Source: Brachycybe producta
Taxonomy: Eukaryota; Arthropoda; Diplopoda; Playtdesmida; Andrognathidae
Length of the DNA stretch: 64,000 nucleotides
Direction: 5' to 3'
Assembly: GCA_036925085.1 (NCBI GenBank)
Contig: JAUPFP010000002.1
Location: forward strand, 4,282,780 to 4,346,779
Shown: positions 42,549 through 63,950 of the stretch, piece by piece
How positions within the stretch are numbered: the stretch's first letter is position 1
Layout of the letters: the number at the start of each line of letters is the position of its first letter
The notes under the pieces: generated by a model
What the model was told of the DNA's origin: nothing
Seen by the model: only the letters and a program-made list of their open reading frames with translations
The model's database searches: none
Translations under genes and position numbers: made by a program

Positions 42549-42938
42549 TTATTTTGATTTTGGGTTTGCACATGCACCAACAGTACCGTGGTATATAAGC
42601 GCAGGAAGGCACATAACGGGACATGTCAAAGCCTCACTACACGCGATAATCAAAGCAAACATAAACAAGAAGAATCTATGCATTGTTTTTGTTTCTTGTT
42701 TCCGTTCTCTTAGCTTTTGAAAAACACTCCATTTGTTGTCAGTCATCTGAAAATATCTTTCACTTGTTGACATGCTTCGAGTTATGTTTTGAACATTTTT
42801 TTGTAAATGCTGTTGTGGTGAGTCTGACGACCAGTAGTAGCGACCAGTGGAATTCATTGCGGTGCCATTGTATTTGGTCAGTTTATCCACTTCAGTGTTT
42901 TCATTGTGAATCTGACGGATTTTACCAGTAGTTTTTTT
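42549..42938 (-). CDS. Last exon of unknown secreted/membrane protein, unit 1
   Basis: Reading on the minus strand, an acceptor (TTTTAACAG, AG at 42939-42940) precedes an exon of about 130 codons ending in TAA. Upstream it has IHNENTEVDKLTKYNG, then NSTGRYYWSS, QKNVQNITRSMSTSER and a hydrophobic stretch (FFLFMFALIIACSEA) before CPVMCLPALIYHG. The same layout occurs at 50470-50816 and 60253-60633, which supports a real gene family. The hydrophobic segment could be a membrane anchor. I do not recognise the family. The frame is intact. Exon 1 of this unit is probably at 43928-44068. Exons equivalent to 2 and 3 were not found, and repeats occupy part of the intervening DNA. Confidence 0.65.
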   Translation of the reverse strand, partial: KKTTGKIRQIHNENTEVDKLTKYNGTAMNSTGRYYWSSDSPQQHLQKNVQNITRSMSTSERYFQMTDNKWSVFQKLRERKQETKTMHRFFLFMFALIIACSEALTCPVMCLPALIYHGTVGACANPKSK

Positions 42939-43317
42939 CTGTTAAAATAAAATTATTAATTTATGTATGTATACATGTATGTGGTAGAAATCTAAGCAGC
43001 CCAGAGTAATCTGCAGACGCGGCAGCCTGCTACTGCAATCTCTTCAGAGTATCTTGCAGCAAATCTCTCCCCTATTTTATCAAGAAAGTATTAGAAAGAA
43101 ACAAAAGAAAGTTGGGAAGAGGGGGAGGGAGGGGAAAACACTTTTTTTCTTCTTCTTTTTTTAAAGTAAATTAGGTTAAGTTCGGCTCCGTTAAGTTAGG
43201 TAACCTAACCGAACCTACCCTAATTTACTTTCAAAGAGAAGAAAGTGTTTTCCGTCCTCCTCCTCATCTTTCTTTCGAAACAAAAGAAAGATGGGAGGAG
43301 GAGGGAAAACACTTTTT

Positions 43318-43770
43318 TCTAAAGCTGCTCGCCCACTAGGTCGGTGACGCGGCGGAAAAAAATAGAGGTCCGCCAACTATGAACGTGGCACGGCACGGTT
43401 TTTCCCCTCCCGTATCTCACAGTATCCATGGAGACGGTGATGAGTAGAGACGAGGAAGTATTTTTTGGCTGCTGTGGGGGAGGTAGAGGAGGAAGAGAAA
43501 ATACACTTCACTTCTAACGCAACTTCTAATTGGTTGGTCATGTAGTCTGACGTCACATGCTCCGCCCTTTTCAACGTCCAACCACACAACAAACCAATTA
43601 GATGTTGCCAGTCGTCAAAAAGGGCGGAGCGAACTAATGTTCTTCCCGATTTCTAAATGCCTGTCACACAAACTATGGAGGGAAACTGATAAATTCTTCT
43701 CCGCACTCCCGTCCACTAGGACGGAAGCGCGGAGAAATTCCGACCTCAAGAAGTTTCAAAACTTGAGGTA
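43318..43770. repeat. GC-rich dispersed repeat split by a palindromic MITE
   Basis: The outer parts match 39297-39445 (GCTGCTCGCCCACTAGGTCG and CCACTAGGACGGAAGCGCGG). Inside, about 43505-43672 is a partial copy of the 21562-21769 MITE (CAACTTCTAATTGGTTGGTC, CCCGATTTCTAAATGCCTGT). This is a nested insertion. The 71-codon frame at 43377-43592 crosses the junction and is not a gene. Confidence 0.7.
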
Positions 43771-43927
43771 GAGACAATTCCCTAATAATGACTGCATTGG
43801 CAGGGCAGAAAATGTATACTGTTTATACGACATAAGATGTGCATTTGTTATTATTGATACTTTCTATAAGTGATGAGAGGCATATCATTTCATAGAATAT
43901 TAGCGAATTCATTCTTAAAACTGTTAC

Positions 43928-44068
43928 CATCTCCAAAAATGTTGTGGTTGGCTTCCAAGACTGTGGTGAATGTACTTTGGAAGTTGCAGACGTTTTGCAA
44001 TTAACGTGTGCCATTTTGTAGACAATGACCACGTAGGCTATGATGTTAAAAAGGAGCATAGTATTCAT
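43928..44068 (-). CDS. Signal-peptide exon 1 of unknown gene family, unit 1
   Basis: The minus-strand ATG at 44068 opens a 47-codon exon ending at a donor-like ATG|GTAACAG. It encodes a classic signal peptide, MNTMLLFNIIAYVVIVYKMA then HVNC, followed by KTSATSKVHSPQSWKP. A paralogous exon at 61945-62103 differs by few residues. Upstream, TATATAAAC (44118-44125) and the following sequence to the ATG are also conserved between the two copies. The predicted product enters the secretory pathway. The donor phase (0) does not match the acceptor phase of the known last exon (1), so at least one middle exon would be needed. Confidence 0.65.
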
Positions 44069-44117
44069 TTTCGTGTGGGTTTGCGTAGTGTCTCACCAAG
44101 CATGTAACATCCTTTCG

Positions 44118-44125
44118 TTTATATA
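44118..44125 (-). promoter_or_regulatory. TATA box of unit 1
   Basis: TATATAAA on the minus strand lies 50 bp upstream of the ATG at 44068 in GGTATATAAACGAAAGGATG. The unit 3 paralog has GGTATATAAAAGAAAGGATG at the same spacing. Conservation between duplicates and position support a core promoter. Confidence 0.65.
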
Positions 44126-44379
44126 CCAAAGAAGATTTTATAAAGGTGTGTCCACCACCAAAAAAAAAAACAATACGTGACGCTGCGAAATGTATGCATT
44201 GCACGTGTAAGACTAAAGGTAAGTAGGGTAGAGTTTCCTGATGCTATTGTCAAATGGCCTTGCCATATATTATCTGCCACACCAATTCATTTTAAAAATA
44301 CATGGTACAGAAGATGAAATAAAAATAAGTTACCCGTAGACAATTAATCGTTTTGTATTGAAGTCTATACATATACTGT

Positions 44380-45034
44380 ATACCCGGAAATTTTTTTATT
44401 TTAACCTCACTTTCCTTAACTATATATGAGTTTCCCAATGGTTGACTGTGTGCTTGGAGATAATGGACATCACCGATGTCCTTGTAAACGAGACAACTCT
44501 TCCCTATACCAGCCTTGGCTTTATACTTAATCCTTAAAAAGCATTATTACCAAAAGACGAGTAATACGATTATGTAGGCTGTAGCCGACTTTGGCATGTT
44601 TGATTGCGGGGAAAACATCCAACAAACGTCTCACATGCTGTGTACACACCCTTTGCTGTGTACTCGTTAAAATTATTTGTAATATTCTAATCGTTTCTTG
44701 AGAAGTTTTAATACTTTTTCGGTCCAATTAAGGACTTAAAAATTTCTTATTGGCACAACATGGAATAAACACGAAACTGATTAAACGCCCAGCAGAATAA
44801 GTGCCAAATTGAACAAAAACACCATAAGCCAAAAATTGGGCAGCTATTCAGTGTAGTAAATTTTCATTTTGGCGATGTTTCAGGTTAGCGCTTGTTCAAT
44901 TTGGCACTTATGTTCTTCGACCTGGTGATGAAACTTCATTCTGAGTAGTTGGGTTGTTAATAGAAACAATATATGTTTTTTTTTTTTTAAATTTTTACGG
45001 TAATGAGCAGTTTTCAGTTTTGTGCAAATTCACT
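44380..45034. repeat. Duplicated upstream block, copy A
   Basis: Collinear with 62260-62900. Landmarks include GGGGAAAACATCCAACAAAC, AGTTTTAATACTTTTTCGG, CAACATGGAATAAACACGAA and GTGCCAAATTGAACAAA. With the exon 1 copies on both sides it shows that a whole gene-plus-upstream block was duplicated. Short open frames here (44527-44727) are not conserved as protein. Confidence 0.8.
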
Positions 45035-45538
45035 TCAATGGTTCAGCATATGGCAGCTAGGTTTGTTTGTGGCAGGCACAAATTTACAGATAGTGTCACT
45101 GAGATGCTGTCAGGGCTACAATGGCATAGTTTGGCACATTGCAGGGCTGAGTTAAGTTTGAAATTGTTTGGGAAAATTACACGTGGTGATTGTCCTAAAC
45201 CACAGTTCAGTGATATTCATAAAGCACTATACATGGGCAGGGCTGACCATTCTAGAAAATTAGGGAGATTTTTGCTAGGACAGATTCATATTATTGGTCT
45301 TTTTTTTCCTTGAGTTATAAGACAATGGAACTCTTTTCCTGAGACAGTGGTGAATGGGGATAATTTTGTTTTGTGGGATTCACATGTGTATATTCATTTT
45401 GTTTTTTTATATACTGTATGTGCATCTATATGTGCTTGACAATGCTTAATACTGCATGTGGACTTTTATGTCCCTCTGCCATAGGCCTATTTGGCTGCTA
45501 AGTAAGCTGCTGTTAAGTAGCCGCTAATTGTAATTGTA
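45035..45538 (+). mobile_element. CR1-like LINE 3' fragment inserted in block A
   Basis: From GGTTCAGCATATGGCAGCTA to the tail TAATTGTAATTGTAATG it matches the LINE copy at 33740-34208. The open frame 44954-45313 includes the tail of ORF2 (SVTEMLSGLQWHSLAHCRAE). The duplicated block B at 62.9 kb lacks it, so insertion followed the block duplication. Confidence 0.88.
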
Positions 45539-45559
45539 ATGAAAATTATCAGTCATTTG

Positions 45560-45700
45560 TCAAGTCTTGTTTCGAAAATTGAGGTAAAAGTATATGAGCT
45601 CGTACTGCGGATGTTCCGAACGTTTTGCAATTTACAAATGTGTCATTTGACAGGCTATGGCCACGTATGGTGTAAGTATAGTGATAGACAATTTCATGAA
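45560..45700 (-). pseudogene. Exon-1 relic upstream of unit 1
   Basis: The minus strand shows degenerate similarity to exon 1: AACGTTTTGCAATTTAC, ATGTGTCATTTGACAGGCTA and GGCCACGTATGG (plus strand) line up with the segment at 62025-62075. No start codon or open frame survives. It lies about 1.5 kb upstream of the intact exon 1, as the relic at 63.9 kb does in block B. Confidence 0.6.
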
Positions 45701-46177
45701 ATTTATTCTGTTGAAATCCATGAAATAAAACAAGATAATTGCATCAGTTTACGTTAACTTTATATACTACCGTAATGTTGTATAAATAACAGGATGTGAC
45801 TAATTTTAGAATAATTAGTCATAGTCTTTTAACATTAAAAAAAATTCCATTTATTAAAAAATGATTGAAAAAAATGAAACAAAATTCCAAAAACTTCGAA
45901 CAAAAAAATTGAAACAAAAAATGACACAAATGGTAAAATTAAACATGTTTAAAATACTCATAGGAACCAATTACAACCACCATTTTTTTTCGTTTATGAT
46001 TTCAGTACTTGGATACAAGTGTTTAAAATAAATTCAACAAGTTTTTTTTAATTATTTCAAACTCCACGTGCCCATATTAGGTGTGAAGTGTTGATTGCCA
46101 TCTGTTCATTTGTGTAAAGCCCCCTTTACACCTACAATTTTACACTAGTTGATATAGCATCTCAATATATTGATATA

Positions 46178-46990
46178 GTATCTCACTATATGGACTTAGT
46201 ATCTCGCTATATGGACTTAGTATCTCGCTATATGGACTTAGTATCTCGCTATATGGACTTAGTATCTCGCTATATGGACTTAGTATCTCGCTATATGGAC
46301 TTAGTATCTCGCTATATGGACTTAGTATCTCGCTATATGGACTTAGTATCTCGCTATATGGACTTAGTATCTCGCTATATGGACTTAGTATCTCAATATA
46401 TTGACTTAGATTAGGTTAGGTTTGGTTTGGTTAGGTAACTATATCTAACCTAACATCACCTAACCTAACCATACTAAGTCAATATATTGAGATAGTATAT
46501 CAATATATTGAGATACGAAGTTAATATATTTAGATACTAAGTTAATATATTTAGATACTAAATCAAAATATTGAGATACTAAATCAAAATATTGAGATAC
46601 TAAGTCAAAATATTGAGATACTAAGTCAAAATATTGAGATGCTAAGTCAAAATATTGAGATGCTAAGTCAAAATATTGAGATGCTAAGTCAAAATATTGA
46701 GATGCTAAGTCAAAATATTGAGATGCTAAGTCAAAATATTGAGATGCTAAGTCAAAATATTGAGATGCTAAGTCAAAATATTGTGATGCTAAGTCAAAAT
46801 ATTGTGATGCTAAGTCAAAATATTGTGATGCTAAGTCAAAATATTGAAATACTAAGTCAAAATATTGAGATACTAAGTCAAAATATTGAGATACTAAGTC
46901 AAAATATTGAGATACTAAGTCAAAATATTGAAATACTAAGTAAAAATATTGAGATACTAAGTCAATATATTTAGTCAGCATCTCAATATA
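46178..46990. repeat. 21-bp satellite in opposed orientations
   Basis: About ten units of TATGGACTTAGTATCTCGC-type sequence (21 bp) run to 46400. A centre with TTAGG-like strings follows at 46405-46475 (GGTTAGGTTTGGTTTGG and CACCTAACCTAACC). Then about 24 units of the complement type (CTAAGTCAAAATATTGAGAT) run to 46990. As 21 is a multiple of 3, long repeat frames (MDLVSRY, MLSQNIE, FDLASQY units) stay open on both strands. They are not genes. Confidence 0.93.
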
Positions 46991-47157
46991 TTGACTTAGT
47001 ATCTCAGTATATTGACTTAGGTTAGGTAAGGTTTGGTAACTATAGGCCTACCTAACCTAACCAAACCTAAGTCAAAAAACGCCAAATTAATTTTATTTTT
47101 ATTTCGAGAGTTTCCATTAGTGATCAATAGATGGTGCTGCTAATGCACGCGCATGCT

Positions 47158-47523
47158 TAGACCTGTGCGCCGCCGGTCGAAACCGCCGCCGCCGGTGTTT
47201 TTGAAGCTAAAAACGCAGCCGCTCGCCGCTTGTACTTTTTTTAAAAACCCGCCGCCACTCGTCGCCGGTGTATGACTGGCGGCCGCCGAATTCAAATTTG
47301 TTTTGGTTGGTTTTGTTTCAAAAACTGCCATAGGAATGAAATCATACCATATTCGATATTTATCGATTTCAATTTATATCGATAATTACCACATTCAATA
47401 TATCGATAAATCGATATATTTGTTCGATATGTTCAATTCCAGACGCCGGTAGTCGTCGCCGCCGCTGCTCGTATTTACCCTCGCCCGCCGCCGCCGATCA
47501 ATATGCTATGGCGCACAGGTCTA
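47158..47523. mobile_element. hAT element with GCCGCC-rich ends
   Basis: Ends TAGACCTGTGCGCC and GGCGCACAGGTCTA are perfect inverted repeats, flanked by the perfect 8-bp duplication CGCATGCT (47150-47157 and 47524-47531). GCCGCCGCC-type strings near both ends and CGATAT strings in the middle make it compositionally unlike its surroundings. Non-coding. Confidence 0.92.
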
Positions 47524-47688
47524 CGCATGCTCACTGCAAATACCGCTGTGCTAATGCTAGTCAATTTTACTTAGATGTTTGTGTCAATTAAATGATGAAT
47601 GTTTTCGTGAATGATTTCTTACATAAAATGTATAAATTAATTTGTAAGTATCAATCGCTGGTTATACACAAGTAAAAGTATTTGAACA

Positions 47689-47992
47689 CTAGTGGGGTAA
47701 CCCGTCATAAATGACGGGAGCAAAAATTCACAGGCAATTGTGAGCATGCGCGTCGTTTTTTCCTTTTTTTACTCCTTTCATTTCAATTTCAGTCACCCCT
47801 CCCACTTTTCTCTCTCTCTTCCCCTTCTACACTTTCCAAACTTTTCTCCTAACCCCCTCCCACTTTTCTCTCTCTTATCCCTTTTACACTTTCCAAAGGA
47901 AGAGTTCAACATATAGTTGACCTTGAAAAAAAAACGGTTCATTTATTCAAATTTATATAAATTCCAACGTGCTTCAATGGTTTTTGGTACTC

Positions 47993-48025
<33 letters not shown>
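47689..48025 (-). mobile_element. Helitron, 5' end lost in a CA microsatellite
   Basis: The 3' end (minus strand) is intact: CTAG at 47689, then GTGGGGTAACCCGTCATAAA hairpin sequence. The interior (ACATATAGTTGACCTTG) matches the 38.4-kb copy. Instead of the TCCCAGG end there is a CA/CGCA microsatellite at 47995-48028. Confidence 0.82.
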
Positions 48026-48119
48026 ATATTCACATTTTCACGCATATTCACATTTATTTCAACATTTAAATTCTACAATAAAAATAAAACAGTTCCAGGC
48101 ATTTTTCTCTATGTTTAGA

Positions 48120-48470
48120 GATTAATGCATTATTTTTTTGGAAGATATACTTGAGGAAGTATCCCCAATTGACTGGTGGAAAAATTATTAAAGAGATACA
48201 TACATATAAATAGTAATAGTAATCTATTTAGGAGCCTCAGAGGTAAACTGTGTTAAGTCACCAAACCTAAATTTTACAGTGGAGTTGTTTGAAAGTTTTT
48301 CTCTTCATTGATGGAATAGGACTTAACATGGTATACCACCATCTAGCGGCTGATGTCTAAAACCGTCGACTTAACACTGTTTACTGTTGGTAGAACTTGA
48401 CAAGCTGTTTAAAAAAAAAATTTTTTTACATCTTATGAAGATGTAAAATCGTGATTTTTAACCTGTTCAC
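48120..48470. repeat. Second copy of the 1.6-1.98-kb module
   Basis: Reverse-orientation match to about 1630-1985: GCCTCAGAGGTAAACTGTGT, AGGACTTAACATGGTATACC and GAACTTGACAAGCTGTTTAA. No target duplication was located. Confidence 0.7.
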
Positions 48471-48892
48471 AATATTTGTTGTGAACCTACTTCGCAGCGG
48501 TTTAAAAATTACAACTCATAGGCAGCATTAATGCAGAAGACTGTCTCGATGTAGGAGCTGTAACCTCGGTTAGAACGTCACAAAAGTATCTGTCTTTCAA
48601 ACGACGTCATAACCGACATTGTCTATATCAATGTCGAATACTTAATGGTCACACACCCTGAACTTTTGCCAAGACAAAATACAAATTTTACAAGTAATGT
48701 GGTCTATTACTAATTACTTGAAGTAAGTTGTTCAATTTCAGTCATTGATTAAATTTGGCAGATTCAGATTTTCGTTTTACGTGATGAAAAGAAATTCGGG
48801 CTGTTGTATTGTAAACAAGGGATTCAAGGAACCCTATAGACCTCCATTGCTTTAATATATGCTTTCATATATCAAATAACCAACTTTTTTCA

Positions 48893-49661
48893 TTGTGCGC
48901 ATGTGTACGCACATGTACACACTTGTGTGCATGTGTACGCACATGTACACACGTGTGCGCATGTGTACGCACATGTACACACTTGTGCGCATGTGTACGC
49001 ACATGTACACACGTGTGCGCATGTGTACGCACATGTACACACGTGTGCGCATGTGTACGCACATGTACACACGTGTGCGCATGTGTATGCACATGTACAC
49101 ACGTGTGCGCATGTGTACGCACATGTACACACGTGTGCGCATGTGTACGCACATGTACACACGTGTGCGCATGTGTACGCACATGTACACACGTGTGCGC
49201 ATGTGTACGCACATGTACACACGTGTGCGCATGTGTACGCACATGTACACACGTGTGCGCATGTGTACGCACATGTACACACGTGTGCGCATGTGTACGC
49301 ACATGTACACACGTGTGCGCATGTGTACGCACATGTACACACGTGTGCGCATGTGTACGCACATGTACACACGTGTGCGCATGTGTACGCACATGTACAC
49401 ACGTGTGCGCATGTGTACGCACATGTACACACGTGTGCGCATGTGTACGCACATGTACACACGTGTGCGCATGTGTACGCACATGTACACACGTGTGCGC
49501 ATGTGTACGCACATGTACACACGTGTGCGCATGTGTACGCACATGTACACACGTGTGCGCATGTGTACGCACATGTACACACGTGTGCGCATGTGTACGC
49601 ACATGTACACACGTGTGCGCATGTGTACGCACATGTACACACGTGTGCGCATATGTATATA
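48893..49661. repeat. 30-bp purine-pyrimidine alternating satellite
   Basis: About 25 nearly identical 30-bp units of GTGCGCATGTGTACGCACAT plus GTACACACGT. From 48984 to 49661 the sequence alternates purine and pyrimidine without a break. Stop codons TAA, TAG and TGA all need adjacent purines, so all six frames are necessarily open here. The 250-283-codon frames are therefore artefacts. Alternating GT/GC tracts of this kind favour left-handed Z-DNA. Confidence 0.95.
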
Positions 49662-50221: not shown

Positions 50222-50257
50222 ACACACACACACACACACACATACATACACACACAG
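50222..50257. repeat. CA microsatellite
   Basis: A CA dinucleotide run with two ATACAT interruptions. Confidence 0.9.
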
Positions 50258-50469
50258 ACATCCTTTTTTTCCCCTTTTCTTGCATGATCCTATATACCTC
50301 CATTGCTCTTTAGAGCAATGGAGGTCAAAAAGGAAAATCTTAATTCTTATAATGAATTCATACCAACAAATTGAAGAATTTTATTTACTATAATTTTTGA
50401 AGAAAAAAAAAATTGACATGAAACATTCTTTTCATTCTATTTTAAAAGTTTCTGCAAATTTGCATTGAT

Positions 50470-50816
50470 TTACATCTCTCGCTTCAGGTACTTACATCTT
50501 GTAAAAGTGTGAATTATGCTTGCAGGAAGGCACATTAAAGGGGTTGTGCAAAACTCAATACAAAAAATAAGCATGGCATAAAAAGGTTTTAACTTATCAA
50601 GCTGGTGACGAAAACTAAAGGATTTGCCAGTCAGTCCCCAAAATCTTTCACTAGGTGACATACTTGTAGTTATGTTTTCAAGATTTTTCTGAAAAAGCGG
50701 TTGTGACGACCAGTAGTAGTGACCAGTAGATTTCATTCTGATGCCATTGTATTTGGTCTGTTTGTCCACTTCAGTGTTTTCGTTGTGAATCAGATGGATT
50801 TTACCATGAGTCTCTT
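50470..50816 (-). CDS. Last exon of unknown secreted/membrane protein, unit 2
   Basis: On the minus strand an acceptor (TTCTAATAG, AG at 50817-50818) is followed by a frame ending in TAA at 50470. It includes VDKQTKYNGIRMKSTGHYYW, QKNLENITTSMSPSERFWGL and a short hydrophobic part (FYAMLIFCIEFC) before PLMCLPASII. Two paralogs are at 42549-42938 and 60253-60633. The cysteine pattern differs: the first cysteine of CPVMC is missing (TPLMC). The frame is open. The 3' flank 50320-50470 is also related to 60110-60250. Confidence 0.62.
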
Positions 50817-50895: not shown

Positions 50896-51000
50896 CTGAT
50901 GAGTTTTCCACTGTGTTGTTATTCAGAAGGGGTTGAAATGTAGAATTTTTTTCAGGTGTTTTGGAATGCCTTCGTATGTTTCAGTCGTGGTGGAAATTAA
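50896..51000 (-). pseudogene. Middle exon of unit 2 with one-base deletion
   Basis: Bounded by CACAG| (51001 side) and ATCAG|GTACAG (50896 side), this 105-bp exon aligns with the 106-bp exon at 60715-60820. One base is missing in an A-run, so the frame runs into TGA in the segment aligned to HLNN. Without the missing base it would join the last exon in phase. This suggests that unit 2 is a pseudogene or that the base was lost in sequencing. No exon 1 was found for this unit. Confidence 0.6.
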
Positions 51001-51710: not shown

Positions 51711-51755
<45 letters not shown>

Positions 51756-52354
51756 CTGCTATATAATAGTTTGCGCCACACAAAAAATAGGCACGACAAC
51801 TGGATTTTACGAAGATAACTGCACATGCGCATTTCATATGGGGCAGCCCACTTCCTGTTAAACATTTTTTTTGCCTCCATCTTGGTTTCACCAGTTAAAA
51901 ACGCGAAAAAACGAAACCAACTCCAAAAACTTATTTCAAACTTCCAATTGTTGGAAAAATGGATGGAAATAACGATTTATTCAATATTTTTCATGAATTT
52001 CACCCTTGAACACATGGATAACACCCACTTAGAAATGTGATCCCATATACTACATTGCTCACGTCCCTTTTAATGTAACAATTCTATCTTACTTTTTATT
52101 GTAGGCTCCATTTTTGGTTTGGCAAGGTGTGGGTGGGTATTTCCGGTTTAAAATATATATTGTTGTGTGTGGAAGTTGTGAGCGCAACCTAAAGGCTACA
52201 ACTACAATTTTTCAACACAGAAAACAACAATCTACAATTAGTAGTAGTTGTAGATAGTAGTAGTTGTACCATGGCGCAAACTCTAATAATTTAGTAATAA
52301 ATAATAAGAAATACTTACCAATGATGAGATATGGTCCAGGAAAATAAGGCAGGA
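51001..52354. other. AT-rich DNA with a TAG trinucleotide microsatellite
   Basis: A (TAG)n run of about 15 units lies at 51711-51755. TAGTAGTTG repeats lie at 52237-52270. No gene is supported. Confidence 0.5.
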
Positions 52355-52650
52355 GATGAGGATTTGCAAAATTATTATGGCGTTCATATTTAACATGCTT
52401 GTGTACCTGTACCTGTACACAGTGTACCTGTTTAACCTAGTGTATTACTGTATGATTCAAAATTTTTCTTTTATATACAGGTTTATTTTGAATGAAAAGC
52501 TAACTAAATCACATTTTGAGCAGATTTTTTTTTCATTCAGAATAACACGTGTTTTACATGTGTCTGAGGAGGGAAAGCGCAGTCAAATCCAATGTTTCTC
52601 ATTGATAATATGCCTACGAAACGATTCACATTGACATGTAATGTACACTT
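52355..52650. repeat. Direct repeat, partner at 53430-53725
   Basis: GGCGTTCATATTTAACATGC, TTTATATACAGGTTTATTTT and AATGAAAAGCTAACTAAATC recur about 1.07 kb downstream in the same order. The 92-codon frame starting at 52356 is not kept in the second copy. Confidence 0.75.
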
Positions 52651-53230: not shown

Positions 53231-53725
53231 GTTATCTTAGAATAGAATTATCTTATGACGTTCATTGAGAGTACAATCATAAAAAACATATGTATTAAAC
53301 GTTTACCTTTATTAATACAAACATGTAGTCAGTTCTCATGCAAATTATAATTTTATTTCATGTTCTTCCAAGGTTTTGCATTGATAACCTTAGAAACAGT
53401 TCATGTTAACGTGTAATGAATTATTGAAAAGTTATTATTGCGTTCATGTTTAACATACATGTACTTTCTGTTGCACGTAGTAACTGTTTAACCTTGTGTA
53501 TTTCTTTACAATTGAAAATTTTCCTTTTATATACAGGTTTTATTTTCAATGAAAAGCTAACTAAATGATGCTTTGCAGCATATTTTCTTTTTCATTACCT
53601 TTATTTTTAGAGGGAAAGTGCAGTCAGTTCTCAGGAAAATTCTAATTTTATTTCATGTACATCCAAAGCCTGGCATTGGTAATATGCCTATGAAACATTC
53701 ACATTGACATGTAATGTACACATTC

Positions 53726-54172
53726 GTCTTTGTAATCGGCACGTTTCTTTATAAAGATGAATAAAAATGTTACAATAAGAAACCACGCTGTCTTTATGTT
53801 CCGAAACTAATAACTTCTCTACAGAGGCCGGAGACACCATAAGGTAAAGAGCACATACAGATCCTGGTGCAGCTACAACATCTTCTACTGCCAGTAAATA
53901 TCAAGAGGAGGAGATGTACATCAGCGTCAATGGAGAATAGGATGGCCACCATACTTCTGCACAGATTTCACCCCATGCAGAAGGATGATCGCAATCCATC
54001 ACCATCCAACTCTTTCTGTAGCTCGAATCTTCTCTGTGCGGGCACCACACGATGCAGATAAGTAACGAGTTACAAGAAACAACATCTACAAGTTGGTCAA
54101 AAAATAGTCGACGTCAAAAGCTCACATTATGGACCCCAGACCTGGGACCTACGTCATAATCTTGAGAGGAAT
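53726..54172. other. Likely 5' part of a retroelement
   Basis: Composition changes at about 53820 to the less AT-biased type of the following gag region. The open frame 53867-54061 has no recognisable domain. No LTR or primer-binding site was identified. Confidence 0.35.
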
Positions 54173-54532
54173 TTGCTACATCCACTGCAGGGATTTCCAA
54201 AATACGATGATGACAACATTCTCCTCTACATCGAAGAATTTGAAGACATCGCTACAGCACACGACTGGATTTCCCTGCAGCGATACAGACACTTCGCATG
54301 GCTCTTGAGGAAGCGTGCAATAAAATGGCTTGCACACTTCCGCTCTGCTTACGATGACAAAGAAATTACGTGGATGGCCATGAAGGAGGGAATTATTGCT
54401 GAATTTCTCCTGCCGGACCAAAAGGTCCAAATGAGTCGTGAATTGGTGGAGAGGCGGCAGCAAGATCATGAAACTGTCAGGGTCTATGCTGAAAAATACA
54501 CCAAAAAATACAACATGGTTTCATCCACATGA
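54173..54532 (+). pseudogene. Retrotransposon Gag fragment
   Basis: The 119-codon frame has a Gag-like core: YIEEFEDIATAHDW, then RHFAWLLRKRAIKWLAHF, then EFLLPDQKVQMSRELVERRQ and ETVRVYAEKYTKKYN. The order (a W-containing helix, an A-L/W helix, an L-x-R-x-Q helix) is that of the retrotransposon Gag domain of Ty3/gypsy-like elements, whose capsid-type protein packages element RNA. It is cut by a stop after VSST. The next frame continues at 54570 in another phase, and the zinc knuckle is back in the first phase. At least two frameshifts make it inactive. Confidence 0.8.
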
Positions 54533-54569
54533 TGATGAATCATTGTTGATAGCGACTTTATGAAAAAGT

Positions 54570-54806
54570 TTGCTACCAACATTGAGAAAACATTTGTATG
54601 GGACACTGAAAGACCATTTTCATGAGTTCGTTTGCTTCAGCACACAGACTGAAGGAGAACTGGTGGATGAGAAAGAATTGGTTTACAAGACATCGGCTGT
54701 GACTACAACCAAAGTGAACGTAAGCCAGCCGAATCAAGGAAGTCAACCAAAGCAGCAGTCAACTGAGGAATTCAAGCGGACAAGACAAGATGTCAAACCC
54801 GCCTGA
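54570..54806 (+). pseudogene. Gag continuation, shifted frame
   Basis: From 54570 the frame reads LPTLRKHLYGTLKDHFHEF and later NQGSQPKQQSTEEFKRTRQD. It connects the Gag core to the zinc knuckle region. The glutamine-rich linker is common between capsid and nucleocapsid parts. Confidence 0.6.
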
Positions 54807-54886
54807 AAGGGCTGACACTCAACTGGAACCAATACAGACAAATCAACATCAGCACAAGGAGAAATCAACACCAGGGCCTGTTCACC

Positions 54887-54928
54887 TGTTACCGATGTGG
54901 GGAGGCGGGCCACATTGTACATGAATGC
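54887..54928 (+). pseudogene. CCHC zinc knuckle of Gag
   Basis: The translation CYRCGEAGHIVHEC fits CX2CX4HX4C exactly, with all four metal ligands present. It is in the same frame as 54173-54532. Nucleocapsid knuckles of this form bind nucleic acid. Confidence 0.88.
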
Positions 54929-55589
54929 CAAAATTCCGGAAAATTAATTACTGAACCAAAGGGCATTCCAACGGCAACATCAACCACTGTAAGCAGAATT
55001 GACAAACCATTGGCAACGACGGTGACGGCAACGAAATTTTCGAATACAGTTGAGGTTGATGAAATTCATACCTTGCCGAATGTTATGAAAATGGTGCCTG
55101 TGCACATAAGTGGCATCATGCACTATTTTCATTTGGAGAATTGAACGGAAGAGGCTTTAAACTGCTAAGGGCACCACTCATTCCCAAAGTAGTGATGCCG
55201 AAGTAGTTGTGATGGAAAAAGATGTCAACTTGGAGAATCTTCAAGGGGTTCAGGCTGCTGACCAACAAGAGGAAGTTTCTGAGCAGCCAAGGGTTATGTG
55301 CATCAAGGTCCAATAGGGAGTAAACAAGGTGGAGTCCAAAGGTCTGTCATTGGGAATGACAGCTAGAGATGTTCGAAAAATCCACAGCCCTGTGCCAAGA
55401 TCGACATACGGCGGAAGCAATGCTACTAAAAAGTTGGTACACAGCGGAACAAGAATCAACAAGGCTGACATCTGGAGGTGTTGCTGTTAGAATCCGAAGT
55501 TGTACCATCCAAGGGGAAGGTCAACTAAAGAAACCTCTGCAAATTGGGGATGCCAAGATGAATTTCAAGGTTAAACCCATGGTGAAAAA

Positions 55590-55990: not shown

Positions 55991-57842
55991 AGTTTCAAGA
56001 AGAAACCATGAATCTTCAAAGGGGAGGAACAATCTCAGTCAAAATTGACCGAAACAATCCTCATGAAGATTGGAGAAAAGACCTCACTGAAATCACTATT
56101 GACAAACAATCCAGTGAAATTTCAGAAGAAACTTCAGTGAGAGAGAGAAAAGGGATAAAACACATGGGATGGCTAAAAATCTCTCTAAGAAAGAGACATC
56201 GACAGCCCCCATGTGCAAACATGTGTAGGACCTGAAATGAAGGTTAATAGGCATTCAGGAGTGGGGAAAGAGAAATCCAGCATTAAAATCATCTTAAAAG
56301 ATGCAATAACATTTTATTTGGATATAGAAATGGCAAAAATTCGAATTTGCCGCTATATGGAGCGCCGCCTGGTGGGAGCAAAAGATGAGAAAGAATTTTC
56401 TAAAGAGAAAACTCCTCCCACTTTTGGCCAGAATTTGAAAGTGAGAGCCCCACAGGATCACGTGAGCAGTCAGCTGTCATTTTTATGGGCTCCACTTTGG
56501 TATTCAATCCCTGAACTACCGTATGACGCTGAATTGTGCTTACCTCACGCCCACTCCGGAGTTGCATTGATCCTGATGGCTGTTGCGCTTCATACCAGGC
56601 CATCAGTCACTCCCATCTTGCAGCAGTTATGTTTTGTAGGATGTCTTCAAGTGGATCCTCTTCAAGTGGGTTTGTATTGTCATCTTTTTTTGGCATCTTG
56701 AACTTCGACTTGGGCCTGCCTTTTCTTCCTTTTCCAGCTGGTGTAGCTCCGACATCTCTAGTATTTTCTACTTCATCGTCAGTGAGGTACCCTGCACCTC
56801 CACCATTTTGTAATGTTCCCATTTTCTTGTGGCCTTGTGATGCCAGAGAGATCTCTGGTAGCCATTTGAAACTATCAATTGAACATTGATGTACAAGTCT
56901 TTCGGTCGATTGGCACCTGTGTTGTATACTTCCACACCAGGGACACAAGGGTCAGTATCTCAAGAGTCCATAGGTAGAAAATAGCGCTGTTGAATCAGCT
57001 TACACGTGGCTGCTGGAGACTTCCTCTTCTATCGGTTGAATCATTGGCTGAGCGGCGGCTGTAACATCAAGTCCCACTCCCAGAAATAACAGAGTCCACA
57101 CATAGAAGTTATATTTCAAAAGATACTTTATTTCAAAAGACAGTGACATGCTGTGGATTGAGAGTATCAGAGATGTGTCTAGATCTTTGGTTGTAACCAG
57201 TCTGACTCTCAATCCACACGGTCCTGTTTATATATGTTTAACAACAATAGAAACATGTGATTGATGAACAAAGGTGCCAGGTGTGTCCAAGTCTCTTGGA
57301 CACAACCAGGACCTTCATTTAATTACATTAATTACAGAAACGAAAACATCTACAAGATGTAATAATTATAACAATTGAGAAGGATCTTCATTGATCCTTC
57401 CAATAAAGCTATCAAAAGATTCTCACGTCCAAGAGTTCTGCATCGTTGGTTCTTCTAGGATATGTCCTATTAAAACCAACATTACACCCTCTTGGCTATT
57501 ATTCTCATCTTGGTGGGCAGGGAGGTATCGTCTTGATGGCCTCCCAGCAACCCCCAAGCATGAGGTGAGAACCTCCGTTAAAACATTCTTTATTTTACAG
57601 AGTGTGTACAAATGATTAACCTTTAATTCGTTACAACACGATCAGCCAGCTTTTAACAGGCGAAAGCCCCAACGTTCTTGTGAGAGGAACTTGTAAGGAA
57701 ATGAACGGGACTAATTTGTTCTCTTCCTCCAAACCAGAATATTATTAGTGGCCTAGCCAACCACTTTCTGATTGCTCGAAAGAGCGCTACGATACTTTTT
57801 GACAATTCTATTCACCCCTTGAACGTGTTTCGTTACAATAGT
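55991..57842. other. Unrecognised region of coding-like composition
   Basis: Open frames of 60-162 codons exist on both strands; the largest is 56213-56701 plus, and another is 56607-56948 minus. The minus frame is rich in charged residues (GKGRKGRPKSKFKMPKKDD), as in some retroelement C-termini. I see no integrase, protease or reverse transcriptase motifs. About 57100-57640 holds TTTATTTCA/TTTATTTTAC strings that could be polyadenylation signals on the minus strand. No LTR pair was found. Confidence 0.3.
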
Positions 57843-58135
57843 AACCAATTACAACCACCATTTTTTTTTTCGTTTATGATTTCAGTACTTGAAAACAAGT
57901 TTTTAAAATAAATTTAACATTTTTTTTAATTATTTCAAGTTATATGTGTCCATATTAGGTGTGACGTGTTGATTGCCATTTGTTCATTTGTGTAAAGCTC
58001 CCTTTACACCTACAATTTTTACTAACATATTTGTGTCAATTAAATGATGAATGTTTTCGTGAATGAGATTTGGTACATAAAATGTATAAATTAATTTATA
58101 AGTATCAATCGCTGGTTATACACAAGTAAAAGTAT
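57843..58135. repeat. Dispersed repeat, uninterrupted copy
   Basis: Matches 45960-46143 joined to 47562-47690. Landmarks: TTTATGATTTCAGTACTTG, GTGTTGATTGCCATTTGTTC, CCCTTTACACCTACAATTTT, AAATGATGAATGTTTTCGTG and ATCGCTGGTTATACACAAG. It serves as the empty site for the satellite insertion, and for the Helitron end at 47689. Confidence 0.85.
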
Positions 58136-58451
58136 TCTAACATTTTTACGTGTAGTGTGACAGTTTATAGTATATATTGTGACCTTCTAGACAAGAGAAT
58201 TTGGGAGAGGTGTGCTAAATATGTTGTAGAGCACATCGTATATTGCTTTATAAATTACATGTGAATGATGGTGATCCTGAGAAAGTGCTCTAGTACATGT
58301 GCAGAACGTTAAGAAAAATAGAACACTTTCTACATTAATGCAACCTTGAACAAATAATTTAACATTCACGTCGTTGTACACATGCATTCTCGCATTTTTA
58401 AATTCATTTATAAATTTATTTAAGACAATTATAGGTGTAAAAGGAGCTTTA
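57992..58451. mobile_element. Possible MITE with TAAAGCTCCC ends
   Basis: TAAAGCTCCCTTTACACCTA at the left is mirrored by AGGTGTAAAAGGAGCTTTA at the right. The left end lies inside the dispersed repeat of 57843-58135, whose other copy shares sequence outside this end. Which border is the real element border is therefore unclear. Confidence 0.5.
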
Positions 58452-58664
58452 GATCTTTTTTTGGTTTGGCTCCATTCACATACCTTCCAGTGTCATCTAG
58501 TAACGAGAATAACAATTGAATGCAGGCATTGAATGCATTGTTTTTCAATTATTATTTTTTCATTACTATTTTGAAACAAACCATGGTTACATTTCGAAAC
58601 AATGGAGTTAACTCAACAGCATTGACACAGTGTGATTAACTGCATTATTTAATGGTTAAATACG

Positions 58665-59575
58665 TCACTTCCTGTGTTCAAACTGATTTAGCTAACAAAC
58701 AATATGGCTGGTAGGCCTGAGCATAGCCTCCTATAATACAGGCCGACCCACTTACAAAATAATTTAAAATAAAATGGCCACTGTTACTATATTTTTTTCC
58801 ACTTGGTGGTGCTAGCTATAAATGATAGAAAGTACCATAGCCTATAATCAGAATATTATATATTGTAGCCACGTCTATAGATTTCTGTGCATTAGTTTTG
58901 TATTCTATTTTAGCTTTTTAATACTTTTTAGAAAAAAAGTTTTAATAATTATATGGTTTATGCATACAAATACACACACATCTATAAAAAAAAACCATTA
59001 GAAAGAAAAATATTAAGATTGTAATTTTATTTTTATTCACAATGTTTTTATTAAAAAACAAAATCCTATTTAAATAAAAATAAGTTTAACTTTTGTAAAT
59101 GGTCTAAAAGTGATTTACATTGTAATTTTATTGCTGAAGTGATCATATTGAAATTGTAACTGTTTTCAATATTTTTAAGAAACTAATAAATATTATATAA
59201 ACCAATATAATTATTACTTGTTATGTTCATTTTGTATTTCATTTAGCATTTACCATTCTTGTTTTCAGATGTTACAACTAAATTACAGAAATTTGTATGC
59301 AATAATCAATTGTAACAGCCATATCACTTTAAGCTGATATCGTCTGCTCATCATTGAACAGCGACAAGGTGGCGTCACTGTTCAATGATGAGCAGACGAA
59401 ATATGCATAACGGTGGCCATTTTATGTTCAGTAGAGTGAATAGGAAGCTGGTCGGCCTGTATTATGGGAGGTTATGGCCTGGGAGAGCACTCTGTTTTTA
59501 TTTGAATGAGGAAGGAAATTTTCACAAAGTGCACAGCTGTTTAACAGGAAGTGAAATCAAACAGGAAGTGACAAT
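58665..59575. mobile_element. Foldback element with an embedded perfect hairpin
   Basis: The left arm (CACTTCCTGTGTTCAAACTG, AGCATAGCCTCCTATAATAC, AAAATGGCCACTG) is mirrored in reverse order on the right (CGGTGGCCATTTTATG, GGTCGGCCTGTATTATGGGA, TCAAACAGGAAGTG). The arms are about 120 bp. Between them lies AT-rich DNA. At 59341-59398, directly inside the right arm, is a 21-bp perfect stem (CGTCTGCTCATCATTGAACA plus G) with a 16-nt loop. Confidence 0.72.
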
Positions 59576-60252
59576 CATTTGCCAACAGTTTTTTTCCCCG
59601 TAATTTAATAAAAGAATTGAAAAAAGAATATGTTAATTTTAAAATTGTTTTTTGCAGTGAATAAAAGAGGAACAGACTAATTGTAGGTCACTACATGACC
59701 TACACTTCAGAACTGTAGGTCACTCAGTGACTTACACTTTAGAGCTTTTTTATCAGTGATTAGGTTGGGTAACATTAAATTAAGCTTGTTGCAGGGGGTC
59801 TGGCTGGTTAATTGCTAGGGGTTAACTGTGTCATTGTTTGGGCCGCAGTTAACTGCACATCTAACCATAAGGGGACAGTCCATGAATGGCCCCAATGTTC
59901 TCGTTAGCGTTTGTCTTGTCTTTTCTAGTCCGCAGTTCAATCAGCCAGCCATTGACTGGCGAGGAATTCTGCAACTTGCATGGTCGTCCTGTAGGGAGTT
60001 CACCGGAGGGCATCCTGGGGTTGTGACAATTCTTTAAATTTTACCAAATTAATTTGCAACACTGATTTTTGTTTTTGTTTTTGTTTTAAGCGATCAAATT
60101 TATTTTTGAACTGGAAAATCTTAATGTTATAATGAACTAATAATACCAACTGAAGCTAGGTATTTTATATTTTTTTTTCTATAATTTTGCAGAAAAAAAT
60201 TACTTCAAATTACTTTTTATTTCATTGTAAAACAATTTATTTTGTAAACTTT
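59576..60252. other. No gene recognised
   Basis: Short inverted TGTAGGTCACT/AGTGACCTACA strings occur at 59680-59745. The 69-codon frame at 59828-60037 is unrecognised. The last 140 bp are homologous to the 3' flank of unit 2. Confidence 0.45.
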
Positions 60253-60633
60253 TTACTGTGTTTCCTCAAGTCTATTTTTACTAGCTTTTAACCCACAAAG
60301 AAGTCCAGGGATGCACATGACGGGACATGTCAACATCTCAATACACACGATCAAATGACCATAGAGATAAATGAAGAATCTACCCCCACTTGTTGTTGCG
60401 GCTTTTAGTTTTTTAACCTGGTGTATAGCACTGAAATTGTCGCCAGTCAGTCCCCAAAATCTTTCACTTGGTGACATGCTTCTAGTTTATGTTTTCAAGA
60501 TTTTTCTGAAAATGCTGTTGTGATGTCCAGTAGTAGTGACCTGTAGATTTCATTACAATGCCATTATATTTGGTCTGTTTGTCCACTTCAGTGTTTTCGT
60601 TGTGAATCAGATGGGTTTTACCAGGAGTCTCTT
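60253..60633 (-). pseudogene. Last exon of unit 3, one-base frame disruption
   Basis: After an acceptor (CTACTAG, AG at 60634-60635) the exon begins in phase 1 (AA GAG ACT...), giving GKTHLIHNENTEVDKQTKYN, MKSTGHYYWTSQQHFQKNLE and then a stop. An extra A in CATAAACTAG, compared with CATAACTCG in unit 1, causes it. After the shift the frame continues as MSPSERFWGLTG through a hydrophobic segment (FFIYLYGHLIVCIEM) to LTCPVMCIPGLLCGL. Paralogs are at 42549 and 50470. Either a recent inactivating mutation or a base-calling error would explain the break. Confidence 0.65.
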
Positions 60634-60714
60634 CTAGTAGAATAAAATTATTAATATATACTGTTGATGTTTTATTTAAAACAATTTTTATATCACTCTT
60701 ACTGAAGGGCCTAC

Positions 60715-60820
60715 CTGATAAGTTTTTTATTTTGCTGTTATTCAGATGGAGTTGAAATGTCGGATTTTCTCGTAAGTGTTTTTGAAGCACGTCGTGTGTT
60801 TTGGTATTGTTGAAAATTGA
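60715..60820 (-). CDS. Middle exon (exon 3) of unit 3
   Basis: A 106-bp exon between AATTCACAG| and ATCAG|GTAGGC, starting in phase 0 and ending in phase 1. It encodes SIFNNTKTHDVLQKHLREN and FQLHLNNSKIKNLS. The phase-1 end joins the next exon (AA GAG) without loss of frame. The paralogous exon at 50896-51000 keeps both splice sites. Function unknown. Confidence 0.65.
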
Positions 60821-60876
60821 CTGTGAATTGCAATTGTTTTTCATTTAGCTTTGAGACAGTTTGTTTGCAACGTTAA

Positions 60877-61456
60877 AGAGACCATTACCTCCAGAAATTT
60901 CTTGTCAAAATATTGTCAAGAATTATTCAACCATTACCTAAACTGATTTTTAAAATTTAAAATAAGTCATTAATATAATTTAAAGAAGTTAAAAATCAGT
61001 TGACTTTATATAAATGAACTTTATCAAATAGAGGCGCCATCAAACAACGGGCGTTGGCAACAAAACCCCATCAAAGAATACTTCTCTACTCGAATTTTGA
61101 TCGTGTTGTCACCACCTCAAATTACTTTCATTTCAAAGTACTATGGATTTAATATTTGAATTATTCCACATGGAAGGTTGTATTGAGTTGAATATGAATA
61201 TTGAATACCTATATTTCATTAAGGAATTCTGGGAATGTGAGGTGACAACCTTTGCCACAAAAATGGGGGGGGGGGACTTTCGTTTTTGTAAATTTAAAAT
61301 GGCGTCGTTTGGTGACTCAGGAAAAGTCACTTCAATTTTTAAGTTTTTTATGGTCTTTTAATGTCTTATTTTAAATTTTAAAAATCGTTTTTTGGCAATC
61401 GTTGTGTAAGTCTTGACAATATTTTGAAAATATATTTCTGGAGGTAATGGTCTCTT
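60877..61456. mobile_element. MITE inside an intron of unit 3
   Basis: AGAGACCATTACCTCCAGAA at the left and TTCTGGAGGTAATGGTCTCT at the right are perfect inverted ends next to TTAA on both sides. The arms continue with GTCAAAATATTGTCAAGA. The open frames at 61133-61361 on both strands lie within it and are not genes. TTAA may be the target duplication or part of the inverted repeat. Confidence 0.8.
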
Positions 61457-61710
61457 TAACAAAGTATTAGCAGAGATGCACCGTCATTGCTTGAGCCATA
61501 CTATGATGGTACTAACGCCACCCACTCCCCCAGTTGTATTCCGTACCATCTATCTATTCCCACCCCGTTCATCTCACATTACACCAACAAAGCAATGTTG
61601 AACGTCATAAAACCATAATGAGAATTATGTTGTCAGACAAGCATTGAAGACATAATTGATACTGTACATAACTGGCTTTATAGTCAAGAATGTTAGTGTC
61701 TTTCACTTAC

Positions 61711-61862
61711 TAAGTTGTGCCAAGTTGTGTTGTCCAAAGTATTCTTGGTGTTCTCTAACAGACCAGTTGAGTGGTATATGGTGTTGTTACTCAGATCTTT
61801 AATCTCATTGCTGACTCCATTGTTTTGCTGGTGGATCAGATGAAGTTTGTCATTTTGAATTC
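61711..61862 (-). CDS. Exon 2 of unit 3
   Basis: A 152-bp exon between TTTTAAAAGCAG| and TTA|GTAAGTG, beginning in phase 1 and ending in phase 0. It encodes IQNDKLHLIHQQNNGVSNEI, then KDLSNNTIYHSTGLLENTKN. The HLIHxxN...STG pattern recurs in the last exon (HLIHNENTEV...MKSTG), so exons 2 and 4 look like an internal duplication. The intron to exon 1 would be about 80 bp. I know no matching family. Confidence 0.65.
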
Positions 61863-61944
61863 CTGCTTTTAAAATAAAATAACATAATAACAGGAATACC
61901 TATTAATTGATTTTAATGTAAGTATAGATTTACTCGTACTTTAC

Positions 61945-62103
61945 CAGAGGTGGTGTTCATTTCTTGTCATCAATTGTCGAGTTTGGCTTCCAAAACTGTG
62001 GTGAATGTACTTCGGAAGTACGAAACATTTTGCAATGTACGTGTGCCATTTGATAGACAATGACCACGTAGGCTGTAATGTTGAAAAGCAGCATAGTATT
62101 CAT
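61945..62103 (-). CDS. Signal-peptide exon 1 of unit 3
   Basis: The minus-strand ATG at 62103 starts MNTMLLFNITAYVVIVYQMA then HVHCKMFRTSEVHSPQFWKP. The donor CTG|GTAAAG at 61945 has a good consensus, but an in-frame TGA (AAG AAA TGA) lies 15 bases before it. The phase required by exon 2 would need a one-base shift in the short stretch before the donor. The exon therefore appears disrupted near its 3' end, or a different donor is used. The signal peptide is strongly conserved with unit 1. Confidence 0.6.
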
Positions 62104-62153
62104 TTTCGTGTGGGGGTTTTGGTGTCTTACCAAGCTTGTATAACATCCTTTCT

Positions 62154-62161
62154 TTTATATA
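62154..62161 (-). promoter_or_regulatory. TATA box of unit 3
   Basis: TATATAAA on the minus strand in GGTATATAAAAGAAAGGATG, 51 bp upstream of the ATG at 62103. It matches the unit 1 promoter in sequence and spacing. Confidence 0.65.
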
Positions 62162-62259
62162 CCCAAGTAGTTTTTACAAAAAGGTCTGGAAGAAGAAGGA
62201 AAAAAACAATTTATCCGCATACAGTTAATCATGTCGTATTGAATTATATGCACCTGTAT

Positions 62260-62975
62260 ATCCTGAAAATCACTTTCCTCACTTTCCTTAACACCACGAG
62301 GTTCCCAATGGTTGTGAATCTGTGCACGTGGGTAGTGGACGTCCCCGATTTCTTTGTAAAGGAGACAACTTTTCCTTCCACCAACCTGGGTTTACTACTT
62401 CCTTAAAAAGCGTTAGCAAAATACAAGAAATACTATATTGGCCGTAGTTGGGTATCTTTGATGCGGGGAAAACATCCAAGAAACGTTTCACATTACCCTT
62501 TACTGTATACTCAATAAAATTTGTAAGATTCTTAGCCTTTTTTTTTTTAACAAGTTTTAATACTTTTTCGTCCACCTATTATAAGGACCGAAATAGTAGA
62601 GCTAATGAAAGTGAGGCACAGTATTAGATTGTTGCATTAGATCGTTTTGGCATTTGACCTGTTTCTAAAAAGTTTCTCATTGTTACAACATGGAATAAAC
62701 CCACGAAACGCCGATTAAACGCCAAACTGAGTAAGTACCAAATTGAACAAACACCAAGCTTGAATAAAAGCCAACCAATTTGGGCTATTATTTAGTTTAG
62801 CATATGTTTGTTTTGGCGCTTATTCAGGATGGCGTTCGTTCAATTTAGCACTTATTAAGTTGCCTATTCGTCCTAGTTGAATCGCTAATCGAAACGTAAT
62901 TTTTTATTTTATGGTAATATGAGATTTCAAACTTCAGTTTCCAACGTCAGTTTAATGAAAATTATCAGTCATTTG
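62260..62975. repeat. Duplicated upstream block, copy B
   Basis: Collinear with 44380-45034 plus 45540-45560. Landmarks: GGGGAAAACATCCAAGAAAC, ACAAGTTTTAATACTTTTTC, ACAACATGGAATAAACCC and ATGAAAATTATCAGTCATTT. It lacks the LINE present in block A. Confidence 0.8.
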
Positions 62976-62979
62976 TTAA

Positions 62980-63813
62980 GAGCCTACAGTGAAAAAAAAA
63001 CTTACAAAAATCTTCGCATGTAGGCGCTTCTGTAGCTGTGACGTCAACATGTGGCAAAAAAATCAATTTTGATACACTTTTGTCCGCCATTTTCTCTCTT
63101 ATCGATGGATAAAAGTGGCTATATTTTAATAACGGCTCTTTTTTTGATAAATATGCACTACTGAAAAAAGGAAGAGCAACTTTTGATCTACAATGGTGAG
63201 TAATTTGAGTCGTATACAATTAGTGGTCAAATTTTAGGGTATCATGAAACTTATGGTTAGTGGGAAATTTAGATCCTATAAAATGTATAAACGGAGGAGC
63301 GTTTGTCGCCTATGGGATTTAACATGAGCTAAAAAAATACGAGATTTTAAAATGAAGTTAAAAATAGAAAAACTAATTATAAACTTGTACCAACGTATCA
63401 CTAGATGAGCAATAATGTTATGTACATATTGCAATTTGAATTTTGAAAATCACAATTTTTGTTGCAGAAAACAAAACATTTGTGTGAACCATGTATTTTT
63501 AAATAGGAATTTAACATGGGCTAAAAATACGAGATTTTAAGCGAAATTAAAAATAGAAAAACTAATTATAAATGTGTACCAACGTATCACTAGATGAGCA
63601 ATATTGTTATGTACATATTGCAATTTGAATTTTGAAAATAACAATTTTCGTTGCAGAAAACAAAACATTTGCCTGAACCATGTATTTTTAAAATAGGAAT
63701 TTCTCTTTCTCATTGGTTTCAATGGCTTAGCTGTGGGGCGCCACTAAAATGCGAAAAGTGGAACTATAATTGTCATCTGCTAATATTCAAAATGGCGTCA
63801 CACATATAGGCTC
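62980..63813. mobile_element. TTAA-flanked element with a 190-bp tandem repeat
   Basis: Ends GAGCCTACAG and ATATAGGCTC lie between TTAA at 62976-62979 and TTAA at 63814-63817. Block A at 45560-45570 has a single TCAA at this point, so it is the empty site. The interior holds two units of about 190 bp (63318-63508 and 63511-63697) containing ACCAACGTATCACTAGATGA and TTGCAGAAAACAAAACATTT. The ends match the element at 11904-12803. Confidence 0.82.
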
Positions 63814-63829
63814 TTAAGGTATTGTTTTG

Positions 63830-63950
63830 AAAAGTGTGGTAAAATTACTTCGGATTTTCCAAACAATTTGCAATTTACCTGTACCATTTATGTAGGCTAT
63901 GGTCATGTATGTGGTGAGTTTAACAAAGTAGCATGCATAGTATACCCCAC
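63830..63950 (-). pseudogene. Exon-1 relic upstream of unit 3
   Basis: Minus-strand sequence similar to exon 1. On the plus strand, CCAAACAATTTGCAATTTAC, CCATTTATGTAGGCTATGGT and AGCATGCATAGTAT align with 62020-62100. The first ATG frame stops after about 11 codons. It is a decayed duplicate corresponding to 45560-45700 in block A. Confidence 0.6.

Follow-up and report, generated by a model that had tools for sequence, protein, structure and literature searches.

The window analysed here is a stretch of 64,000 nucleotides from Brachycybe producta (C2:4282780-4346779, where C2 denotes contig JAUPFP010000002.1; the assembly comprises 295,300,729 bases in 442 contigs). It contains three units and several relics of a gene family on the minus strand, and we consider with moderate confidence that they belong to a small protein-coding family, probably of type I membrane-anchored glycoproteins of 173-184 amino acids, that changes through tandem duplications, exchange of exons and losses. 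Two gene types were distinguished. Type A, found on contig C9, has an exon 1 coding for MLLFNII... followed by one long last exon; type B, found on C2, has an exon 1 coding for MNAII..., an exon 2 of 105-109 bases and a last exon. Units 1 to 3 (u1, u2 and u3) lie in the window, u4, u5 and u6 on C2 beyond it, and C9a, C9b and C9c on C9. The family features of the window, in window coordinates, are the following:

42549..42938, minus strand: last exon of unit 1 (type B), with sequons, a SERY motif, a hydrophobic segment, a Cys tail and the stop codon
43928..44068, minus strand: exon 1 of unit 1 (type A), coding for a hydrophobic signal-peptide-like start, MNTMLLFNIIAYVVIVYKMAHVNC..., and ending before GTAACA
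45602..45675, minus strand: type A exon 1 relic (DNA match, E between 1e-7 and 9e-9)
50470..50816, minus strand: last exon of unit 2 (type B), with a frame open on its own
50896..51000, minus strand: exon 2 of unit 2 (type B), 105 bases versus 106, 106 and 109 in u4, u5 and u6
52319..52387, minus strand: exon 1 of unit 2 (type B), coding for MNAIIILQILISCLIFLDHISSL; donor GTAAGT; phase 0
53424..53564, minus strand: type B relic comprising promoter and start of exon 1, with an ATG at 53447 and a stop soon after
60253..60633, minus strand: last exon of unit 3 (type B), with its frame broken mid-exon
60715..60820, minus strand: exon 2 of unit 3 (type B), coding for SIFNNTKTHDVLQ...
61693..61862, minus strand: second exon of unit 3 (type A), homologous to the first part of the C9 last exons; ends read from the sequence
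61945..62103, minus strand: exon 1 of unit 3 (type A), with a length change near its end that leads to an in-frame stop; end read from the sequence
63835..63934, minus strand: type A exon 1 relic (DNA match, E between 1e-7 and 9e-9)

An earlier note on this DNA had described three such units, their motifs and two exon-1 relics, and in this it agreed with our analyses: the units were found at the positions and with the motifs claimed both by reading the sequence and by tblastn with exon peptides (searched against the window, 50 kb to its right and 50 kb of C9), and both relics (45675-45602 and 63934-63835) are present. Its start of unit 2 and the uniformity of the intron phases did not stand; what it called an array of genes consists of three related units, but only one of the three in the window reads open. 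This is unit 1, whose exons can be joined as proposed from the ATG at 44068 to the stop ending at 42549, with GT-AG ends. It is an open chimera in which a type A promoter and exon 1 are joined to a type B last exon; TATATAAA starts 57 bases upstream of its ATG, and its promoter and MNTMLLFNI exon 1 share 84% DNA identity with those of unit 3.

The start of unit 2 had been placed at 51.0 kb, and its true exon 1 (52387-52319) had been overlooked. DNA comparison of the units revealed a block, well upstream of the unit as first drawn, that is common to u2, u4, u5 and u6; in unit 2, exon 1 and a TATA-bearing promoter occupy 52.3-52.5 kb, and TATATAAA starts 90 bases upstream of the ATG. Close variants of the unit 2 exon 1 peptide, with the same GTAAGT donor, occur in u4, u5 and u6, and TATAWA precedes this type B exon in u2, u4 and u5. 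Since exon 2 of unit 2 is one base short, the frame is lost, and the unit is a pseudogene unless the assembly is in error. Unit 3 is a pseudogene, with a type A front beside a type B back and a second exon truncated by a stop just after SERH. A fourth exon-1 relic, at 68.8 kb in extended coordinates, falls beyond the window. The two gene types have recombined, as the chimeric unit 1 shows.

Genome-wide searches with five natural queries and one consensus yielded at least 11 copies of the last exon, nine of them in two clusters, on C2 and C9, and two as divergent singletons:

C2:2.961 Mb, minus strand: one last exon
C2:4.325-4.372 Mb, minus strand: six last exons
C2:4.450 Mb, minus strand: one last exon
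C9:4.625-4.633 Mb, minus strand: three last exons (C9a, C9b and C9c)

All 11 lie on the minus strand of their own contig. Past the window the C2 cluster extends, with u4-u6, as far as roughly 90.3 kb in extended coordinates. The combination of promoter and exon 1 was detected six times for type B and four times for type A, always inside the clusters; these counts, as those of the last exons, are lower bounds. With the last exon of unit 1 as query, unit 2 was matched at E 3.3e-23, the C2 copies beyond the window at 1.1e-40, 3.4e-23 and 5.2e-21, and the three C9 copies at 2.7e-6 to 4.4e-6, so that by sequence the homology of the units is far above chance.

In order to assess the two divergent copies, L043 and L048, a profile was made from the remaining nine sequences without u3 (excluded as broken, leaving eight) and run against 185,961 bases holding 1,917 open frames, with E values scaled to the whole genome. 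L043 scored 1.5e-6 and L048 9.2e-6, neither sequence being part of the profile. Next came the truncated A exon of u3 at 0.71 and, as the best unrelated frame, L061 at 1.2; among the 1,917 frames, nothing other than family last exons scored below 0.71. L048 is the least certain member of the family, since a single-sequence query gave only E 0.26. The phase 1 acceptor is kept in L043 and not clearly kept in L048, and the 5' part of both copies is not settled. Upstream of the L043 last exon, a 142-codon open frame with a signal-peptide-like start (L043:3092-3517, minus strand) directly follows a stop and has no ATG; it may be the 5' exon of L043 or unrelated. Four weaker matches (E range 0.09-8) were dropped: L042 as repetitive, L049 and L061 for a stop in each, and L050, which has no stop, for the absence of the family motif by eye. 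Further weak matches were left outside the count, on C104, on C6 and at C4:7263138 (E 0.23-3.8) and at C1:3740738 (E 0.80), and one more distant member beyond the 11 copies is possible.

When spliced by rule into two or three exons with GT-AG ends, six of the 11 copies read open, and would encode products of 176 (u1), 174 (u4), 184 (u5), 180 (u6), 178 (C9a) and 173 (C9b) amino acids. Three copies are broken: u2, u3 and C9c, the last of these because a T run in its exon 1 is one base too long, possibly through an assembly error. The exons of u4, u5 and u6 measure 69/69/69, 106/106/109 and 350/380/365 bases, all differences being multiples of three, and their second introns 79/84/73 bases. The conserved intron phases that had been claimed hold for u4, u5, u6, C9a and C9b, in which the last exon starts in phase 1, and by its own frame for u2, but not for unit 1, in which it starts in phase 0. 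Five of the six open genes have a TATAWA no more than 160 bases from the ATG, and five of the six an A[AT]TAAA no more than 400 bases from the stop; as raw counts in AT-rich DNA these are weak evidence.

The claim that the family is unrecognised agrees with database searches. No convincing relative of the family sequences was found in Pfam, NCBIfam, PHROGs or the Protein Data Bank (PDB), nor any relative among phage records (searched with the u4 protein). IMG/VR and GTDB contigs, compared with the unit 1 last exon in searches sensitive to close relatives alone, gave none either; for an animal protein, NCBIfam, PHROGs and the prokaryote collections have little power as tests. The best library matches (CCDC144C at 0.015 and DUF3112 at 0.024), a ScpB match of the L048 exon in NCBIfam (0.011), PHROG matches of two members (E 0.021 and 0.063) and the PDB matches (one chain at 1, SH3BP5 chains from 3.5) were all rejected as chance-like. 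A literature text search with six family peptides found no paper, and a topic search found none on such a family as judged from titles and the beginnings of abstracts; the family may already be named elsewhere. Within the databases searched, whose eukaryotic coverage consists of Pfam and PDB, it thus appears as an orphan. That scope, together with the shortness and fast change of the proteins, leaves some chance, well short of likely, that they are divergent members of a known eukaryotic family invisible to these searches, an explanation compatible with membrane-anchored glycoproteins. Against it, a Pfam gathering score was reached by none of nine last exons, nor by the L048 last exon, nor by any of four full-length proteins (C9a, u1, u4 and u6; u5 and C9b were compared as last exons only).

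The six open proteins share a common layout. All start with a hydrophobic segment (best 19-residue mean hydropathy 1.84-2.58, from residues 2-4), putatively a cleaved signal peptide, and contain three to five N-glycosylation sequons and one or two cysteines ahead of the C-terminal part. All six then have a C-terminal hydrophobic stretch (best 19-residue hydropathy 1.66-2.39), beyond whose best window a tail of 8-21 residues includes at least one Cys. Entry into the secretory pathway appears well supported by these sequence features, anchoring by a C-terminal span is likely, and type I membrane-anchored glycoproteins are the most likely identity of the six products. Across nine aligned last exons, ten columns are invariant (in C9a exon numbering K7, E55, R56, T61, S66, I93, E97, C104, P106 and I109). 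Five of these, I93, E97, C104, P106 and I109, fall in the C-terminal stretch near the very end, as would suit a secreted precursor made of a signal peptide, a glycosylated pro-part and a Cys-containing hydrophobic stretch released as a membrane-seeking active peptide; the Glu and Pro in the stretch are as compatible with an amphipathic peptide as with an anchor. We regard such a precursor as unlikely, as no conserved basic cleavage site was seen by eye ahead of the stretch in the last-exon alignment and the hydropathy is within the range of membrane spans.

Sequence constraint was estimated from the ratio of nonsynonymous to synonymous change (dN/dS) by the Nei-Gojobori method in nine pairs, with confidence intervals (CI) from 300 bootstraps. 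The ratio was 0.37-0.85 in eight pairs and 1.25 in one, and in five pairs the interval lay below 1: u4-u6 (0.46, CI 0.30-0.72), u1-u5 (0.56, CI 0.37-0.82), C9a-u5 (0.43, CI 0.28-0.71) and, for the last exon, u2-u5 (0.48, CI 0.27-0.79) and u2-u6 (0.37, CI 0.18-0.72). Synonymous distance was lower ahead of the SERF motif than behind it, at 0.17 versus 0.72 in u4-u5 (Fisher p 0.0009, rounded counts) and 0.25 versus 0.62 in u4-u6 (p 0.02); in the last exons of u2 and u4, 0 of 30 synonymous sites had changed in the front part versus 9 of 37 in the back (p 0.003). Because dN/dS is about equal in front and back (0.61 and 0.60 in u4-u5, 0.42 and 0.44 in u4-u6), faster protein change of the back half is disfavoured, and the pattern suggests that the front halves underwent gene conversion or that halves of different age recombined. 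A more specific proposal, that this is an undescribed animal surface recognition family in which promoter-plus-signal-peptide exons are swapped between subtypes, the glycosylated half is converted and the anchor half is left divergent, seems to us speculative and rather improbable.

Several observations weigh against a functional family of membrane-anchored glycoproteins. A simple anchor would not usually have the conserved Glu and Pro seen inside the hydrophobic segment. AlphaFold2 gave a mean predicted local distance difference test score (pLDDT) of 52.7 and a predicted template modelling score (pTM) of 0.22 for three window sequences, with a low-confidence helix in the back half; because the structure prediction was poor, the topology is read from hydropathy. 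Splicing is predicted in all gene models, a TATAWA is missing within 160 bases of the u6 ATG, and a poly(A)-type signal is missing within 400 bases of the C9b stop. The dN/dS interval includes 1 in the remaining four pairs: C9a-C9b (1.25, CI 0.46-4.65), u4-u5 (0.66, CI 0.40-1.14), u5-u6 (0.64, CI 0.40-1.12) and the u2-u4 last exon (0.85, CI 0.40-2.05). The earlier interpretation of a lineage-specific, rapidly evolving secreted or membrane-anchored family is supported in part, the location by sequence features and the fast evolution by dN/dS, though with these four intervals; restriction to one lineage would be a further possibility. The ratio above 1 in C9a-C9b, the 3 broken copies among 11 and the four exon-1 relics, three of them in the window, would also be expected of leftovers of an older gene cluster that is dead or dying and has no current function. 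We consider this improbable, in view of the six copies open across two or three exons, the length differences in multiples of three among the exons of u4, u5 and u6, and the five intervals below 1. Remnants of a mobile element or virus, to which one could relate the repeat-rich window with its gag-like piece and zinc knuckle at 54.1-55.1 kb, a weak Pfam match of the L048 exon to the hantavirus Gc C-terminus (E 0.047, 13.8 bits, cut-off 28.5) and the weak PHROG matches of two members, are highly improbable and largely refuted by copy number, since 11 copies were found in 295 Mb rather than the hundreds whose presence the earlier note had set as refuting its gene-family reading, the promoter stretches were found six and four times, the genes have putative introns, and the viral, prokaryote (close relatives only) and phage searches gave no relative.

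If the family does consist of membrane-anchored glycoproteins, its genes would be transcribed and spliced as modelled, and the proteins would enter the secretory pathway and become glycosylated. The C-terminal hydrophobic segment would span the membrane with the N-terminal part outside, and the tail cysteines might be lipidated. The proteins may then work in recognition or defence on the surface of a single specialised tissue, a setting that tolerates or favours change. A surface role in defence, mating or some other fast-changing contact would agree with the weak constraint under which duplication, chimera formation and loss have proceeded, but the role is a guess.

The family resembles the general class of type I membrane glycoproteins whose Cys tails are lipidated in its hydrophobic start, sequons, single C-terminal hydrophobic segment and end cysteines. 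Unlike that class, it has no conserved cysteines in the putative outer part and has Glu and Pro in the hydrophobic segment, and its sequence is similar to no named family in the searches made. Schistosome micro-exon genes contain numerous symmetrical exons, each a few dozen bases long. With these and other fast-evolving secreted families the present one shares a signal-peptide exon, tandem arrays and exon turnover, but it has two or three exons of 69-390 bases in phases 0 and 1, and its proteins carry a C-terminal hydrophobic segment. It is a real, small, fast-evolving family, notable as an orphan with an open chimera, although its kind is common. Gene finders easily overlook small membrane or secreted families that evolve fast, and here the history of one is visible within 50 kb, in the form of its two gene types, one open chimera, its pseudogenes and its orphaned promoters. 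If unit 1 is expressed, its promoter-exon swap offers a clean case in which to ask whether a new expression tissue came along.

The family genes on C9 (L014-L018, C9:4605001-4655000) sit among tandem transporter gene copies, one of which matched Pfam MFS_1 above the cut-off (E 3.4e-11) and another below it (5e-5), and a weaker transporter piece lies between C9b and C9c. The copies carry a PPDGNYAW motif, which we take to be monocarboxylate-transporter-like. The same two transporter queries found no match in 114 kb of C2.

Other features of the window are the following:

26680-27672: tandem repeat array of 18-base units
46155-46409 and 46471-46971: tandem repeat arrays of 21-base units
48894-49657: tandem repeat array of 30-base units
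54062-55144, plus strand, in the interval from unit 2 to unit 3: gag-like piece matching Retrotrans_gag (E 1e-6), together with a zinc knuckle match (E 1.2e-5), presumably belonging to a long terminal repeat (LTR)-type element
58187-58492, minus strand: 101-codon frame matching 7TM_GPCR_Srv, a serpentine chemoreceptor family (E 0.0023, 17.8 bits versus a cut-off of 21), probably by chance

Elsewhere in the assembly, contig C442 (15,359 bases) is mitochondrial, with an open cox1 of 511 residues. No stop interrupts this gene under any of three codes, invertebrate, echinoderm/flatworm and ascidian, but only the invertebrate code preserves Lys and Ser at conserved cox1 positions. The cox1 protein looks arthropod. 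The gene order of C442 (L025-L026), with genes named by eye, looks rearranged, nad4L, nad4 and nad5 lying on the cox1 strand and nad1 on the opposite one. Further cox1 copies at L020 (C1:12697416-12698753) and C17:4027703-4029047, one near-complete with a stop and the others fragmentary, are probably nuclear.

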